Assembly (NCBI GenBank): GCA_012729225.1
Contig: JAAYDO010000052.1
Coordinates: forward strand, 21,619 to 85,618
Length of the DNA stretch: 64,000 nt
Direction: 5' to 3'
From: Bacteroidales bacterium
GTDB lineage: Bacteria; Bacteroidota; Bacteroidia; Bacteroidales; Bacteroidaceae
Shown here: positions 1,595 through 64,000 of the stretch, piece by piece
Layout of the letters: the number at the start of each line of letters is the position of its first letter
Position numbering within the stretch: position 1 is the stretch's first letter
Made by a program: the position numbers and the translations under genes
Notes under the pieces: generated by a model
Databases searched by the model: none
What the model saw: the letters and a program-made list of their open reading frames with translations, nothing else
What the model was told of the DNA's origin: nothing

Positions 1595-1682
1595 AAAACG
1601 AACAATGCTTCATTGACCAACGAACAATGCTTCGATGGTTGATGAACAATGCTTCGATAGCCAACGAAGCATTGTTCGTTTT
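1595..1682. repeat. Array A of 22-bp palindromic-core repeat family; ends form a perfect 17-bp inverted repeat
   Basis: Units at 1599, 1621, 1643, 1665, 22 bp apart: CGAACAATGCTTCATTGACCAA / CGAACAATGCTTCGATGGTTGA / TGAACAATGCTTCGATAGCCAA / CGAAGCATTGTTCG...; AAAACGAACAATGCTTC (1595-1611) vs GAAGCATTGTTCGTTTT (1666-1682). Confidence 0.95.
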
Positions 1683-24156: not shown

Positions 24157-24200
24157 TATCGAAGGCGTATCGAAGGCATATCGAAGGCATATCGAAGCCT
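24157..24200. repeat. Four tandem 11-bp repeats TATCGAAGGC(A/G)
   Basis: TATCGAAGGCG TATCGAAGGCA TATCGAAGGCA TATCGAAGCCT. Confidence 0.95.
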
Positions 24201-34624: not shown

Positions 34625-34841
34625 ATGATGACATTCCATTTCCATCCCTCTACCATTCCGAACATCTATCAAACACCAAAATAACACCCTTCATCATAAC
34701 ATCATGCGTAAGCCATCTATGATGCTGTACCAATATATAAGAAGAGAATGTGAATGATGCCAGTCCTTCATTCACAAATCTTTATATCTTCTTCAAACAT
34801 AATGATTTATGCATACCATAGAGCACCATGCCTGTGAGATC

Positions 34842-34980
34842 AAAAACGCATGCATGGTTCATGGGTCATCGCACCATTGTTCATTGACCATCGAAGCATT
34901 GTTCGTTGGCACTTGAACAATGGTGCGTTTGCCATTGAACCATTGTGCATTGGAACATGAAAAGCACCTTGAGGCATGCG
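34842..34980. repeat. Array B of 22-bp palindromic-core repeat family
   Basis: Units at 34848, 34870, 34892, 34914, 34936 at 22-bp spacing; bounded by CAAAAACGCATGCATGG and by GCATGC. Confidence 0.93.
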
Positions 34981-35206
34981 AGATGGAAAATGGCTGGACT
35001 CCCCTACTATTTCATCCTCACACACACCTGCTTCTATTGACCCGTCCTAATCATTAAAGACAGGGTGTGGTAAAACCCCTCTTTTTTATAAAGAACAGGA
35101 ATATTTTATTGATTTTCGGTAAATTTTTCTTGTTTTATTTGGCACAAATATAAGAAATACTTACATTTGCATCGAATTATCAACTAACATCAAACATTAT
35201 TCATCA

Positions 35207-47087: not shown

Positions 47088-47465
47088 GAAAGCAGTCGGA
47101 CGGTTTGTCGCTGGCGATTCCTTAGGAATTGAAAGAGGAAAGTCCGGGCAGCATAGGGCATTCCACTTCCGAAAATAGAAGCAGTCCGTGAGGGTTGAGT
47201 AATGCAGAAGAAAAAAACAACGATGGAGGCTCGCCTCTGTCGAAATGGTGAGAAGGTGAGGTAAGAGCTCACCAGCAGTATGGTGACATGCTGGCTGTGC
47301 ATCTTGGAAGCTGCAAGTTCATGTAAACTACCGCCATCAGGGTAGCCCGCCCAATTGTTCGGTAGAGGGTAGAACGCTTGAGCCATGAGGTGACTCATGG
47401 AGTAGATAAATGACAGACACGCCCTTCAGGGCGGACAGAACCCGGCTTATAGACCGACTGCTTTC
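47088..47465 (+). ncRNA. rnpB: RNase P RNA (bacterial class A)
   Basis: GAAAGCAGTCGGACGGTTTGTCGCTGG, GAGGAAAGTCCGGGC, GATAAATGACAGACACGC, ACAGAACCCGGCTTATAGACCGACTGCTTTC; 5' and 3' ends complementary; TAACTTTG at 47074-47081 as -7 box. Confidence 0.96.
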
Positions 47466-50867: not shown

Positions 50868-52094
50868 ATGAATATACTGAATCTCCTCAAGGTCAGCATC
50901 AATGCTGTTGCCAACAACAAGATGCGCTCCTTCCTCTCCATGCTGGGTATCATCATTGGTGTGGCAGCAGTCATCATCATGATGTCTATCGGACAAGGCT
51001 CAAAGGAAAGCATCCGAAAGGAACTCTCCACCATGGGAACAAACCTGCTCACCATTCGCCCTGGTGCTGACATGCGTGGCGGTGTGCGTCAAGACCCCTC
51101 TGCCATGCAGACACTCAAGATGGCAGACTACCAGCGCATCGTGGCAGAGAAGAAATATGTCAGCTACGTGTCGCCCGAAGTCACCTCGTCGGGGCAGGTC
51201 ATCTTCGGCAACAACAACACCACCAGCACCATGTATGGCGAGAGCACAGAATATCTCGACATCAAGCAGTGGGGACTGGAAGAAGGCATCAACTTCAATG
51301 AAGAAGACATACGCAAGGCATCCAAGGTGTGTGTGGTCGGTCAGACCATTGTGAAAGAACTCTTTGGCGAGGGCAAGTCCTCCGAAGCCATAGGCAAATA
51401 CATCCGCTTCAAATCCATCCCCATGCGCATCATCGGTGTGCTGAAAACCAAGGGCTACAACTCATGGGGCATGGACCAAGACAACGTGATTATCGCACCC
51501 TACACTTGTGTGATGAAACGTATTGCCGCCCAGACCTACTTCAGTTCCATCGTCTGCTCTGCCCTCACCGAGGAACTATCCGAATCGGCCATTGAAGAAC
51601 TCACCGGCATTCTGCGCAGCAATCACAAACTCAAGGGCGATGCAGCGGATGACTTCACCATTCGCTCACAAGCCGAAATGATGGACACCATGTCGAGCAC
51701 CATGGATACTGTCACCATCATCCTTGTGGTGGCAGCCGCCTTTTCCCTCCTCGTGGCAGGTATTGGCATCATGAACATCATGCTTGTGAGTGTGACCGAA
51801 CGCACCAAAGAGATTGGTCTTCGCATGGCTGTAGGTGCCAGTGGCATGGTCATATCCCTCCAGTTCCTCATCGAGTCTGTATTGATCTCACTCACAGGAG
51901 GCATTCTCGGAGTGATCTTAGGCAGTGTGGTCAGCAACTTCGTTATTCCCCTCATGGGCATGCCTTCCAGCATACCCGCATGGTCCATTTATGTTTCCTT
52001 TGCGGTCTGCACTGTGATTGGAGTGCTCTTCGGATACATCCCAGCCCGCAAGGCAGCCAACATGGACCCTATCGAGGCTATCAGACATGAATAA
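50868..52094 (+). CDS. MacB-like ABC permease
   Basis: MRSFLSMLGIIIGVAAVIIMMSIGQGSKESI; GIMNIMLVSVTERTKEIGLRMAVGA; FtsX-like C-terminus. Confidence 0.96.
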   Translation: MNILNLLKVSINAVANNKMRSFLSMLGIIIGVAAVIIMMSIGQGSKESIRKELSTMGTNLLTIRPGADMRGGVRQDPSAMQTLKMADYQRIVAEKKYVSYVSPEVTSSGQVIFGNNNTTSTMYGESTEYLDIKQWGLEEGINFNEEDIRKASKVCVVGQTIVKELFGEGKSSEAIGKYIRFKSIPMRIIGVLKTKGYNSWGMDQDNVIIAPYTCVMKRIAAQTYFSSIVCSALTEELSESAIEELTGILRSNHKLKGDAADDFTIRSQAEMMDTMSSTMDTVTIILVVAAAFSLLVAGIGIMNIMLVSVTERTKEIGLRMAVGASGMVISLQFLIESVLISLTGGILGVILGSVVSNFVIPLMGMPSSIPAWSIYVSFAVCTVIGVLFGYIPARKAANMDPIEAIRHE

Positions 52095-52671
52095 GATGAA
52101 AACAATCCTTTCCACTCTCTTGCTATTGGTGGCAAGCAGTTCCATACAGGCGCAGTCGCTCAAAGACCTCTTTCTCAAGATGCCACAAAACCTCTGCCCT
52201 GCCCTCTCCGAGTACAACCGTCTGGAGATTGTAGATAACCAGAAGAATCAGAAGGTCATGCAAACACGCAACCTCTTCCGCACCTATTCCAAGATGGAAG
52301 AGCTCACCGACGATTATGCACGACTCACTGTGACCAAAAACTCACAGAAAGAGATGAAACTGCTCACCCTCAATGATGAAACAAAAATCATCATGGTGGT
52401 CAGCACCATCTTGGTGGACGACACACCCGACTCCTCTGTCGCCTTCTACTCTACCGACTGGCAACCTCTCCCTGCCCAAGCCTATCTCCCAGAGTCCATC
52501 TCTGAGGACATCCGCAAGATAGAGGTTGAATCAGCCACTGGTCGCCTCACCATCACCACCAACAATGCGCCCCTTCTTCTGAACTACGACGGAGTGAAGC
52601 CAACACCAATCCCCACCTCCTCCAGCACCTATGCCTGGAAGAGTGAGCAGGGAAAATACGTGAAGGAATAA
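52087..52671 (+). CDS. DUF3256-like secreted protein
   Basis: Signal peptide MKTILSTLLLLVASSSIQAQ then SLKDLFLKMPQNLCPALSEYNRLEIVD; start at 52087 overlaps the permease stop. Confidence 0.8.
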   Translation: MNKMKTILSTLLLLVASSSIQAQSLKDLFLKMPQNLCPALSEYNRLEIVDNQKNQKVMQTRNLFRTYSKMEELTDDYARLTVTKNSQKEMKLLTLNDETKIIMVVSTILVDDTPDSSVAFYSTDWQPLPAQAYLPESISEDIRKIEVESATGRLTITTNNAPLLLNYDGVKPTPIPTSSSTYAWKSEQGKYVKE

Positions 52672-52730: not shown

Positions 52731-52862
52731 GCATGCACACTTCATTGGCAAACGAACAATGCTTCATTGGCAAATGAACAATTGTTCAAGCATCAATGCA
52801 CAATGCTTCAAGTGCCATCGAACAATGGTTCAATGACCAACGCACCATGCATGCGTTTTTGC
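52731..52862. repeat. Array C of 22-bp palindromic-core repeat family (six units)
   Basis: Units start 52731, 52753, 52775, 52797, 52819, 52841, exactly 22 bp apart; ends in CCATGCATGCGTTTTTG. Confidence 0.95.
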
Positions 52863-53041
52863 CCTATCATCCTTCCGTCTTCAGCAAACAGCTAATAGAT
52901 GACACATCAAACAAAAAACCTGAGTTGATGCTCAGTTTTTTTTGTTTGCTTGACATGTGGGCATTCACCTACTCGATGCAGGCAAGCGTGTTCAGACAAA
53001 CCACACGAAAGCGTTCCCTCCAGCATGGAGACATTGCCATG

Positions 53042-54865
53042 CTAAAAAGCAAACAACAATGGCAACACAAATGTCATCACGATACCAATAATGATTTGCA
53101 GAGGCAAGCCCACACGAATATAATCCATAAAGGTATATCTACCAGCCTTCATCACAAGCGCATTAGGCGGTGTGGAAAAAGGAGAGGCAAAACACATGCT
53201 GGCGCCAAGCGTCACCGCAAACAGGAATGGATAAGGGCTAACACCCAACTGCTGAGAAGCCACCAGAGCAATAGGCGCCATCAGCACGGCCGTGGCAGTA
53301 TTGCTGATAAACATGGTCATGAGCGAAGTGGTGAAGTAAATGCCTCCCAACAAAGCATAAGGACCCAACGAACCCAGGCTATTGACGAGCGTTTCCGACA
53401 CAATCTGCGAAACGCCTGTCTTCTCCAAAGCAGTGGACATAGGCATCATGGATGCTATCAGCACAATGCTCTCCCAGTTGATGGTCTTATAGGCGGCATC
53501 AATGCTACGGAAGCAACCTGCAAAGAAAGCAAGCAGAGCGGCGATGAGCACAGCCGTCACAGGAGCCAACGGGATGAAGTCAAACACCATCATCACAATC
53601 ATCAGCAACATGATGACTGCCGCCACAGGTGCCTTATAGTCGAGCAACACCTTCTCGGCATTCTTGTCAGGATGCCCCAACACAACCCAGTTCTCATTCT
53701 CATTGTTCAGCTGAAAGATCTTCTCCCAATCACCCTGAACCAACAGCACATCACCATTCTGCAAACGGTGTTGGCTCAACTCATCCGTGATGTACTCTTC
53801 ATCACGACGAATACCCAGAATATTGATGGAATAATCCTCACGCAAGCGAGAGTCCATGATGCGCGTACCGACCAGTCGGGAAGTGGGAAGCACCACAATC
53901 TCTGAAATGCCTATATCATAGAAATCCAGTCCCGAGCCGTGCAGATTCACCAGATGATAATCAGTCGCCAATCTCTGCATGCCCTCCTCCGAACCATAGA
54001 AGTAAATGATGTCTCCCTGCCTGATGACACTATCAGCCCAAGCCATACTCTGGTTCACCTGCTTGCCAAAAGCCTTTCTCTTCTCATTGCGAATCTCAAG
54101 AATGGTGAGTCCATACTGGTTCTGCAAGTCCAGCTGCTTCACAGTCATGCCGGCAAGACCATTCACTCCCGTTCCCACACTATATTTATAAAGATTATCC
54201 CCAAGCTGATACTCCTCAGCCAGATCCTTGAGACTTTTGCCTTGCGTCTGCTGATGAGACTTCTCCTTCTTCTTCACCAGCATGATGCTCATGGGCAGCA
54301 ACACAGCCAAACCTATGGCAATCACAATCAGCCCCACAGGGAAAAAAGAGAAAAACTCCAGACGTGCAAAGCCATTCTTCTCCAGTGTCTCACTGATCAC
54401 CAAGTTGGGAGGCGTACCAATCAGCGTGAGCATGCCACCAAGGCTACCCGCAAACGCCACAGGCATCAGCAGACGGGAAGAGCGAATGCCCGAACCCGCA
54501 GCCATACTCATGATGATAGGCATCATGATGGCCACCGTACCCGTATTGCTCACAAATGCACCTATAAACGATGTGGCCAGCATCACAAGTATGAAGGCAT
54601 ACGTCTCATTTCCCTTTGCCAGTCGAGCAATCTTGTTGCCTGCAGACTGAGCCAACCCCGTTTGAAGGATCGCCCCTCCCACAACAAACAGTCCCACCAT
54701 CATGATGACAATGGAGGAAGAGAAACCGCTCAACGCTTCTTCTGTGGTCAAAACACCCGTTGCAGTCAGCACCATAAGTGCTGCCACAGCCACAATATCG
54801 CCACGAACACGTCCCCATATAAACATGGCGATAGTGACAATCAACACAATAATAGTTATTGTCAT
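53042..54865 (-). CDS. SLC13/DASS-family permease with two RCK_C (TrkA-C) domains
   Basis: Two transporter halves, GTPPNLVISETLEKNG and ISNTATAVLMAPIALV, with central TrkA-C-like repeats. Confidence 0.92.
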   Translation of the reverse strand: MTITIIVLIVTIAMFIWGRVRGDIVAVAALMVLTATGVLTTEEALSGFSSSIVIMMVGLFVVGGAILQTGLAQSAGNKIARLAKGNETYAFILVMLATSFIGAFVSNTGTVAIMMPIIMSMAAGSGIRSSRLLMPVAFAGSLGGMLTLIGTPPNLVISETLEKNGFARLEFFSFFPVGLIVIAIGLAVLLPMSIMLVKKKEKSHQQTQGKSLKDLAEEYQLGDNLYKYSVGTGVNGLAGMTVKQLDLQNQYGLTILEIRNEKRKAFGKQVNQSMAWADSVIRQGDIIYFYGSEEGMQRLATDYHLVNLHGSGLDFYDIGISEIVVLPTSRLVGTRIMDSRLREDYSINILGIRRDEEYITDELSQHRLQNGDVLLVQGDWEKIFQLNNENENWVVLGHPDKNAEKVLLDYKAPVAAVIMLLMIVMMVFDFIPLAPVTAVLIAALLAFFAGCFRSIDAAYKTINWESIVLIASMMPMSTALEKTGVSQIVSETLVNSLGSLGPYALLGGIYFTTSLMTMFISNTATAVLMAPIALVASQQLGVSPYPFLFAVTLGASMCFASPFSTPPNALVMKAGRYTFMDYIRVGLPLQIIIGIVMTFVLPLLFAF

Positions 54866-55180: not shown

Positions 55181-55248
55181 AAAAATAAATATTCACGTGA
55201 AGCACATGATCCGAGCATTTCTGTACGTCAGAATTATTCAAGAGGCGT

Positions 55249-55281
55249 ATCGAAGCCCTATCGAAGGCATATCGAAGGCTT
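55249..55281. repeat. Three tandem 11-bp repeats TATCGAAGGC(A)
   Basis: TATCGAAGCCC TATCGAAGGCA TATCGAAGGCT, same unit as at 24157-24200. Confidence 0.93.
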
Positions 55282-63588: not shown

Positions 63589-63977
63589 CAAGGTCTTTAT
63601 AGATGCGAGAAGCGAGGTTTGACAAGTGCACCGAATAGAAGAAACAAGGCAAAAAGAAATACAAACAATTGGCATGCCACTCTTCGTCATTCAGAACTTG
63701 CCGTCTCTCATTTATCAGACCTTTACACAACGAATCGCATACATCTCCAGAATAAACCCTTTATTGGTACAAAAAACATGTGGACTTCATTTGCCATTGA
63801 AATATATTTTGATGGTCAATGAAGTCCACTTTCTTTAACAGAAACCTGATAAACTTCTCACACCCTGTTCCCATGATTAGGGAGGGGTGAATAAAAGCGG
63901 GCGTGCACGAGAACAGAACAGTAGGTTTCCATATCCTTTTGACATGTCACATGATTAAAGCATTCTTCATGCTCTAA

Positions 63978-64000
63978 CGAACAATGTTTCAAGTGCCAAC
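63978..64000. repeat. Array D (start) of 22-bp palindromic-core repeat family, cut by the window edge
   Basis: CGAACAATGTTTCAAGTGCCAA followed by C at the edge; same 22-nt unit as arrays A-C. Confidence 0.75.

Follow-up and report, generated by a model that had tools for sequence, protein, structure and literature searches.

The array described here occupies positions 52731–52862 (+ strand) of a 64,000-nucleotide stretch of DNA (the window; contig 94:21619-85618), which is part of a 2.89 Mb draft genome of a Bacteroidales bacterium consisting of 213 contigs and 88.8% complete. The array lies between genes: upstream, a gene encoding a DUF3256 protein (52018–52671, + strand) ends 60 bp 5' of it, and downstream, a CitMHS-type transporter gene (53042–54865, − strand) is transcribed convergently, so that the array is flanked by two gene 3' ends. 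A terminator-like hairpin, CTGAGTTGATGCTCAG followed by a T run, is located outside the array at 52920–52935.

The array comprises six units in an exact 22-bp register. Units 2–5, all on the + strand, carry full cores: CGAACAATGCTTCA TTGGCAAA (52753–52774), TGAACAATTGTTCA AGCATCAA (52775–52796; the only perfect palindrome within the array), TGCACAATGCTTCA AGTGCCAT (52797–52818) and CGAACAATGGTTCA ATGACCAA (52819–52840). The outer units are degenerate, the one at 52731 retaining only the right half of the core (GCATGCACACTTCA) and the one at 52841 only the left half (CGCACCATGCATGC), and these two half cores carry the 22-bp register out to 52731 and 52862. A preliminary description of this locus, made from the sequence alone, had correctly placed the array, its exact register and its intergenic position; its count of six units holds for the four full cores (starting at 52753, 52775, 52797 and 52819), while the remaining two are just half cores. 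It had also set the array apart from CRISPR, and we concur: a CRISPR would have an invariant repeat and unique spacers at least about 20 nt long, whereas here the units vary and the 8-bp spacers are themselves semi-conserved.

Cores recur at exact 22-bp spacing

In the window we counted 12 occurrences of the core sequence YGMASMATKSTKCR, as compared to 0.18 expected from shuffles, and all 12 fall within three arrays, at 1599, 34870 and 52753. A scan of the whole draft yielded 265 neighbouring cores spaced exactly 22 bp apart (counted as pairs), whereas the reversed-pattern control gave no pair at all. This bears out the earlier proposal of many such arrays, far above chance. Our copy and gene-context statistics cover 790 kb of the 2.89 Mb draft, in stretches chosen partly because they contain arrays. 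Among the 146 cores found there, 91 gaps measure 22 bp and 9 measure 44 bp, with no other gap size under 200 bp; only 4 cores are isolated, and the 91 pairs belong to 42 arrays with at least two cores. Extrapolation from the 265 pairs suggests roughly 120 array-bearing places genome-wide.

While the core had been described as a degenerate palindrome, this is true of the consensus and not of most units: 9 of the 146 cores are perfectly palindromic, which is rarer than the approximately 24 predicted by random pairing of half-sites, and a GAACAA half usually stands opposite a different half (e.g. GAAGCA, GCACCA or GAACCA). The units have position-specific identities: CGAAGCATTCTTCATGCTCCAA for unit 1, CGAACAATGGTTCAATGGCCAA for unit 2, CGAACAATGCTTCAAGTGCCAA for unit 3, TGAACAATGGTGCGATGACCAA for unit 4 and TGAACCATGCGTGCGTTTTTGC for unit 5. 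Same-position units from different copies are 79.5% identical, as compared to 57% for different-position units within a copy and 58% between copies, which argues that the array was dispersed as a block, without growth by local duplication.

A dispersed element carries the array

Alignment of the arrays with their surroundings revealed a directional dispersed element of approximately 500 bp, with conserved sequence on both sides extending well beyond the array, which is its central and best-conserved part. Copies are about 450–510 bp long and number more than 45 in the 790 kb; no transposase piece was noticed within the copies that we read. Several copies end in ACGTGAGTTC / GAACTCACGT. The intact 501-bp array element on contig 202 (ACGTGAGTTCGACGAAT ... 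ATTCATCCAACTCACGT) has a perfect 7-bp duplication, TAAGACA, on both sides, and a second copy (L073) has the 7-bp duplication TATTTTA; a third (L067) has both ends and no duplication, and at L042 the duplication is just 5 bp. Many older copies have a single recognisable end, the right TIR and the duplication often being beyond recognition.

Searching the genome with the MITE end returned many copies starting with ACGTGAGTTCGACGAATT. In a series of these, the contig stops approximately 110 bp away, which is the pattern that an insertion sequence present in many copies would leave by interrupting the assembly. The contig-end pieces encode the start (MITEDKVTEIFCIADDFCKFF) and the end (FIVNLLGAIAAYCLFPKKPCINVQRTFDTQIALF) of a transposase. 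Of these short pieces, the N-terminal one (E 2e-11) and the C-terminal one (E 5e-8) both align to a Segatella copri protein annotated as an IS982 family transposase; Pfam and NCBIfam gave no match. A plasmid of Prevotella nigrescens carries an IS982-type element with the same TIR and a 7-bp duplication, ATACTTA; the frame of this element is interrupted, and it was used for its ends and pieces only. The TIR ACGTGAGTTCGACGAA is common to the insertion sequence copies of our genome, the MITE copies (C202, C105) and the P. nigrescens insertion sequence. Given the shared TIRs, the 7-bp duplications and the IS982-family transposase pieces, the element is a MITE of an IS982-family insertion sequence. 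The preliminary description, whose interpretation is partly supported, had named a match to a characterised class of repeat as a ground for refutation; by that test the array, lying inside a dispersed, directional MITE, does match a known kind of repeat. An internally deleted IS982-type element with both ends kept is present on contig 183 (L349:1500-2073), and is likely a step from insertion sequence to MITE.

MITE copies in the window are preserved to different extents. A near full-length copy at 34744–35138 (− strand; profile matches 34929–34744 and 35138–34889) has its array mid-element (34870–34949), the 5' part of another (63813–64000, + strand) is cut by the window end, and an array-only copy at 1599–1678 (+ strand) has four cores at 22 bp. 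For the array at 52731–52862, matches to the element profile are confined to 52739–52790 and 52773–52869, and we take it to be a MITE copy with the array region alone recognisable, its outer flanks lost from view. Near the 1599 array, at 2375–2956, is a gene for a DNA-binding protein of the HU-HIG domain type, in which HU is joined to an additional domain.

We also observed a second type of array, built of 11-bp direct repeats (CTCGAAGGCAT / TATCGAAGGCA), with about 30 arrays in the 790 kb at many loci. Two are in the window, at 24157–24197 (TATCGAAGGCA) and 55243–55279, and the element that bears such arrays shares its TIRs with the MITE in at least one fuller copy elsewhere (L042:378-835). 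Elsewhere, a 22-bp palindromic array of CGAAGTGTACTTCA units, with a core unlike that of the main family, lies beside a MITE copy (L025:6840-6900).

Array conservation and gene context

Column identity is 88% in the array and 70–71% in the flanks, and profile conservation is 0.84–0.88 in the array, as compared to 0.5–0.8 elsewhere in the element and approximately 0.6 at the TIR. The profiles used for finding copies were seeded on array-bearing copies; searches with flank-only profiles gave almost no array-free copy, the arrays being intact in nearly all cases (37–43 of 44 matches), even where little of the MITE flanks could still be discerned. Low scores are few and come from second hits in the same element, contig edges or weak matches. 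Array-only copies persist at 1599 and 52753 of the window. Read from these copies, the pattern suggests that the array outlasts the transposon ends after insertion, although gene conversion between copies, instead of selection, could be behind its slower decay.

Gene context was assigned with a simple ORF caller for intergenic gaps of at least 150 bp. Of 30 arrays, 18 are flanked by convergent genes and one by divergent genes; among 185 background gaps, the corresponding numbers are 51 (p=7e-5) and 47 (p=1e-3). The gene ends beside arrays are 47 3' ends and 13 5' ends. The same tendency, although weaker, is seen at loci from other Bacteroidales (p = 0.0014 and 0.02). The convergent preference may simply reflect where a 500-bp insertion is best tolerated.

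RNA-level tests

The consensus fold of 20 copies has just 5 pairs (−1.5 kcal/mol), that is, there is no conserved RNA fold across these copies. While single arrays fold better than their dinucleotide shuffles, the fold energy is no better than that of unit-shuffled arrays, and the end-to-end self-complementarity is below the level seen after unit shuffling. A selected whole-array hairpin was rejected, the unit-shuffle tests being opposite in direction. A structured RNA was likewise rejected, with neither a consensus fold nor an Rfam match: the sole Rfam match in the window is RNase P, and there is none in four loci with MITE copies. The RNase P RNA (class A) gene is located at 47092–47465 (RF00010, E 3e-66). 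We also rejected an intrinsic terminator inside the array, as no terminator-like site was detected within 52731–52862. Many arrays of other species have an A-rich flank on the left and a T-rich one on the right.

Arrays in related genomes

The exact core pair is missing from all 44 congeneric species searched, in which a BLAST search with the consensus of the element gave only two marginal matches of 35–52 bases, one each in G025 and G014 (E about 1e-4). Neither the 84,980 species genomes nor IMG/VR, searched with our own species left out, contain a stricter core pattern. Free-standing regulator arrays with a genus-wide motif were rejected on the same count (0/44 congeners). Relatives do not share the exact motif, but they do share the architecture, with other cores. 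A generic pattern of three GAASNNNNSTTC palindromes at 22-bp spacing matches at least 106 stretches in species genomes, with a chance expectation of about 0.1 by rough calculation, and Bacteroidales account for 73 of the 80 loci listed for this pattern (by record titles), among them Prevotella, Bacteroides, Parabacteroides, Phocaeicola, Hallella and rumen genomes; Prevotella lacticifex and Hallella mizrahii are two of the species with such arrays. Phage carriage was rejected, with only 17 stretches bearing the generic triple pattern in 2.9 million viral contigs.

Within the family, a pair is present in 23 of 301 genomes, in 1 to 127 copies, with a single control match. The cores are alike within a genome and different between genomes (e.g. 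GAACATATGTTC, GAAGATACCTTC, GAAGCAGGCTTC, GAACCTATGTTC), and their halves change together across species: palindromy is 0.81, as compared to 0.71 after column shuffling. One form, GAACNNNNGTTC, resembles the Gram-positive SOS box (LexA-type); LexA-type boxes were set aside, the cores varying by species and many not being of this form.

In the isolate RGIG1657 (G174), the arrays reside within MITEs of 112–165 bp with ends GGTTCTTCTGCAATTTRGTTGAAA, which we take to resemble the ISL3 type, and with 8-bp duplications (TTAAAAGA in L246, ACCTATAT in L247). Two MITE sub-families of this genome (L239-L257) have identical ends and different cores (GAACATATGTTC, GTATCTTAAGATAC) on one 22-bp grid. In the congener G043, 23 is the commonest period (19 arrays) and period 22 is nearly absent (1 array); there, several palindromic units are of unrelated sequence, some of them of 24 bp (L264-L267, L292-L311), and examples of the palindromic arrays are CTGTAGCAGTTGCTACACTGGCA, CGTACCCGAGGGGTACGCCATGC and GGTGTGAGTCACACCTATGGAAGG. 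What the arrays have in common is thus a unit that is palindromic, or nearly so, and recurs every two helical turns or so, at 22 bp in this species and at 22–24 bp elsewhere. In Parabacteroides sp. PH5-46 (L095, L119, L129, L133, L141, L166), the spacer is palindromic as well (ACAATTGT / ACATATGT), and the arrays are closed by inverted CCCACA...TGTGGG ends.

Discussion

We propose, with about even confidence, that the MITE-borne array is retained near gene ends, where its helical phasing would make it a platform for protein binding. An IS982-family transposase of this species may be able to mobilise the ~500-bp MITE, whose shared ends and duplications are directly visible, and the insertions lie mostly between convergent genes or 3' of genes. 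Judging from the conservation pattern, the transposon ends and flanks then decay and the 22-bp array stays. With its approximately five repeats, the directional 22-bp unit (CCAAYGAACAATG...) would show the same site on one helix face; a DNA-binding protein would occupy the repeated sites cooperatively, and the occupied array would act as an insulator or topological buffer where transcription units end, a role also suggested for enterobacterial BIME/REP arrays. As the array is better conserved than the transposon ends and lacks a conserved RNA fold, DNA-level recognition of the repeated 22-bp site is favoured, and a DNA-level working mode is the most likely one. The same two observations lend indirect support to the multimerising DNA-binding protein proposed earlier as a candidate partner. 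The arrays of relatives, with the same architecture and other cores, suggest that spacing matters more than letters. A more far-reaching generalisation, which we regard as unlikely, would be a Bacteroidales-wide class of 22–24 bp phased palindromic arrays of species-specific sequence, spread by any available MITE and kept at transcription-unit ends because they are used by a fast-evolving DNA-binding or topology-managing system.

Could the array instead serve transposition alone, for example through internal transposase binding or end pairing, in an ordinary MITE that has no host role and owes its conserved array to master-copy constraint or gene conversion? The clear anatomy of the element, its dispersal as a whole block and its patchy distribution, with copies homogeneous within a genome as is typical of selfish elements, are all consistent with this. 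We nevertheless consider it somewhat unlikely, since the TIRs, which are certainly needed for transposition, are far more decayed than the array, since array-only copies remain even in places that have lost every flank (1599 and 52753 of the window), and since similar arrays in MITEs with unrelated ends (G174; PMC4596501) show that the array is not bound to one transposase. 

A role in RNA appears quite improbable: were the array transcribed from the flanking genes, its long stem could terminate transcription or protect mRNA 3' ends, which would suit the location near gene 3' ends, the stronger folding of single arrays relative to dinucleotide shuffles and the A-rich and T-rich flanks in other species, but the 20 copies share no fold, arrays with shuffled unit order fold at least as well and exceed the real ones in self-complementarity, perfect palindromes are depleted and the array holds no terminator-like site. 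Finally, short tandem arrays with periods of 11 and 22–24 bp are common in Bacteroidales, and a functionless neutral repeat generated by slippage would be one more of these. We find this highly improbable, as units are no more alike within arrays (57%) than between them (58%) while same-position units reach 80%, which speaks against local amplification; moreover, the period does not drift from 22 bp, and the array is conserved above its surroundings.

Recognition of the MITE turns a single odd array into a testable class, namely unrelated small Bacteroidales transposons with two-turn palindromic arrays, and the insertion sequence copies account for a series of assembly breaks in this genome. 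If a host protein uses the arrays, as in the platform reading that we prefer, they would be a Bacteroidales counterpart to the enterobacterial REP/BIME arrays. Bacteroidales are a major gut and rumen group in which we found little description of such systems.

Comparison with known systems

Enterobacterial REP/BIME elements are present in many intergenic copies, with short palindromic units arrayed 3' of genes and with species-specific sequences. The array MITE resembles them in all these respects and differs in having DDE-type TIRs, target duplications and a fixed 22-bp register; its DDE-type ends make a REP/BIME system with a RAYT (GTAG/CGTC hairpin, Y1 transposase) unlikely. Plasmid iterons are directly repeated sites of ~22 bp on one helix face that are bound cooperatively; the arrays share with them the ~22-bp direct repeats, and are located at more than 100 chromosomal places. 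REP elements are the subject of an overview (PMC3733652).

Among published elements, the one from Porphyromonas gingivalis named BrickBuilt comes closest: a MITE with central 23-nt tandem repeats, about 19 copies, which is intergenic, species-restricted and predicted to form long stem-loops (PMC4596501). The likeness lies in an intergenic Bacteroidales MITE with an internal short tandem array, here of 22-bp units and there of ~23-nt units. The element is not BrickBuilt itself, characterised by the AGAYCATARTATCCTCTCRTRTG repeat and GAGACCTTYGCA ends: the repeat, the period (23 in BrickBuilt versus 22 here) and the ends (TIRs of ISPg1/ISPg9 type versus IS982 type) all differ. BrickBuilt also has far fewer copies, and the array units here are diverged and position-specific. 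When repeated, the BrickBuilt consensus AGAYCATARTATCCTCTCRTRTG (PMC4596501) contains, in our reading, the near palindrome TCTCRTRTGAGA. The same study mentions 22- and 23-nt direct repeats in P. gingivalis strain W83 and gives the terminal repeats of MITE239 (ACGTGAGTTCGATATAAAGGAA) and MITE700 (TCGAACTCACGT) (Table 2, PMC4596501), which are almost identical to the MITE ends here (ACGTGAGTTCGACGAATT); unlike the array MITE, MITE239 and MITE700 have no internal mini- or microsatellite (PMC4596501). ISPg3 is filed there under IS5 (PMC4596501), whereas the transposases of our genome and of P. nigrescens match IS982-family proteins. The BrickBuilt line of work is the only one on Bacteroidales array MITEs that we found in the open-access literature. 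A Bacteroidales MITE with an internal minisatellite is thus already known; new are an array MITE of IS982 type with more than 100 places, the finding that unrelated MITEs with species-specific cores show the same spacing again, and the evidence for an array that outlasts its transposon ends.
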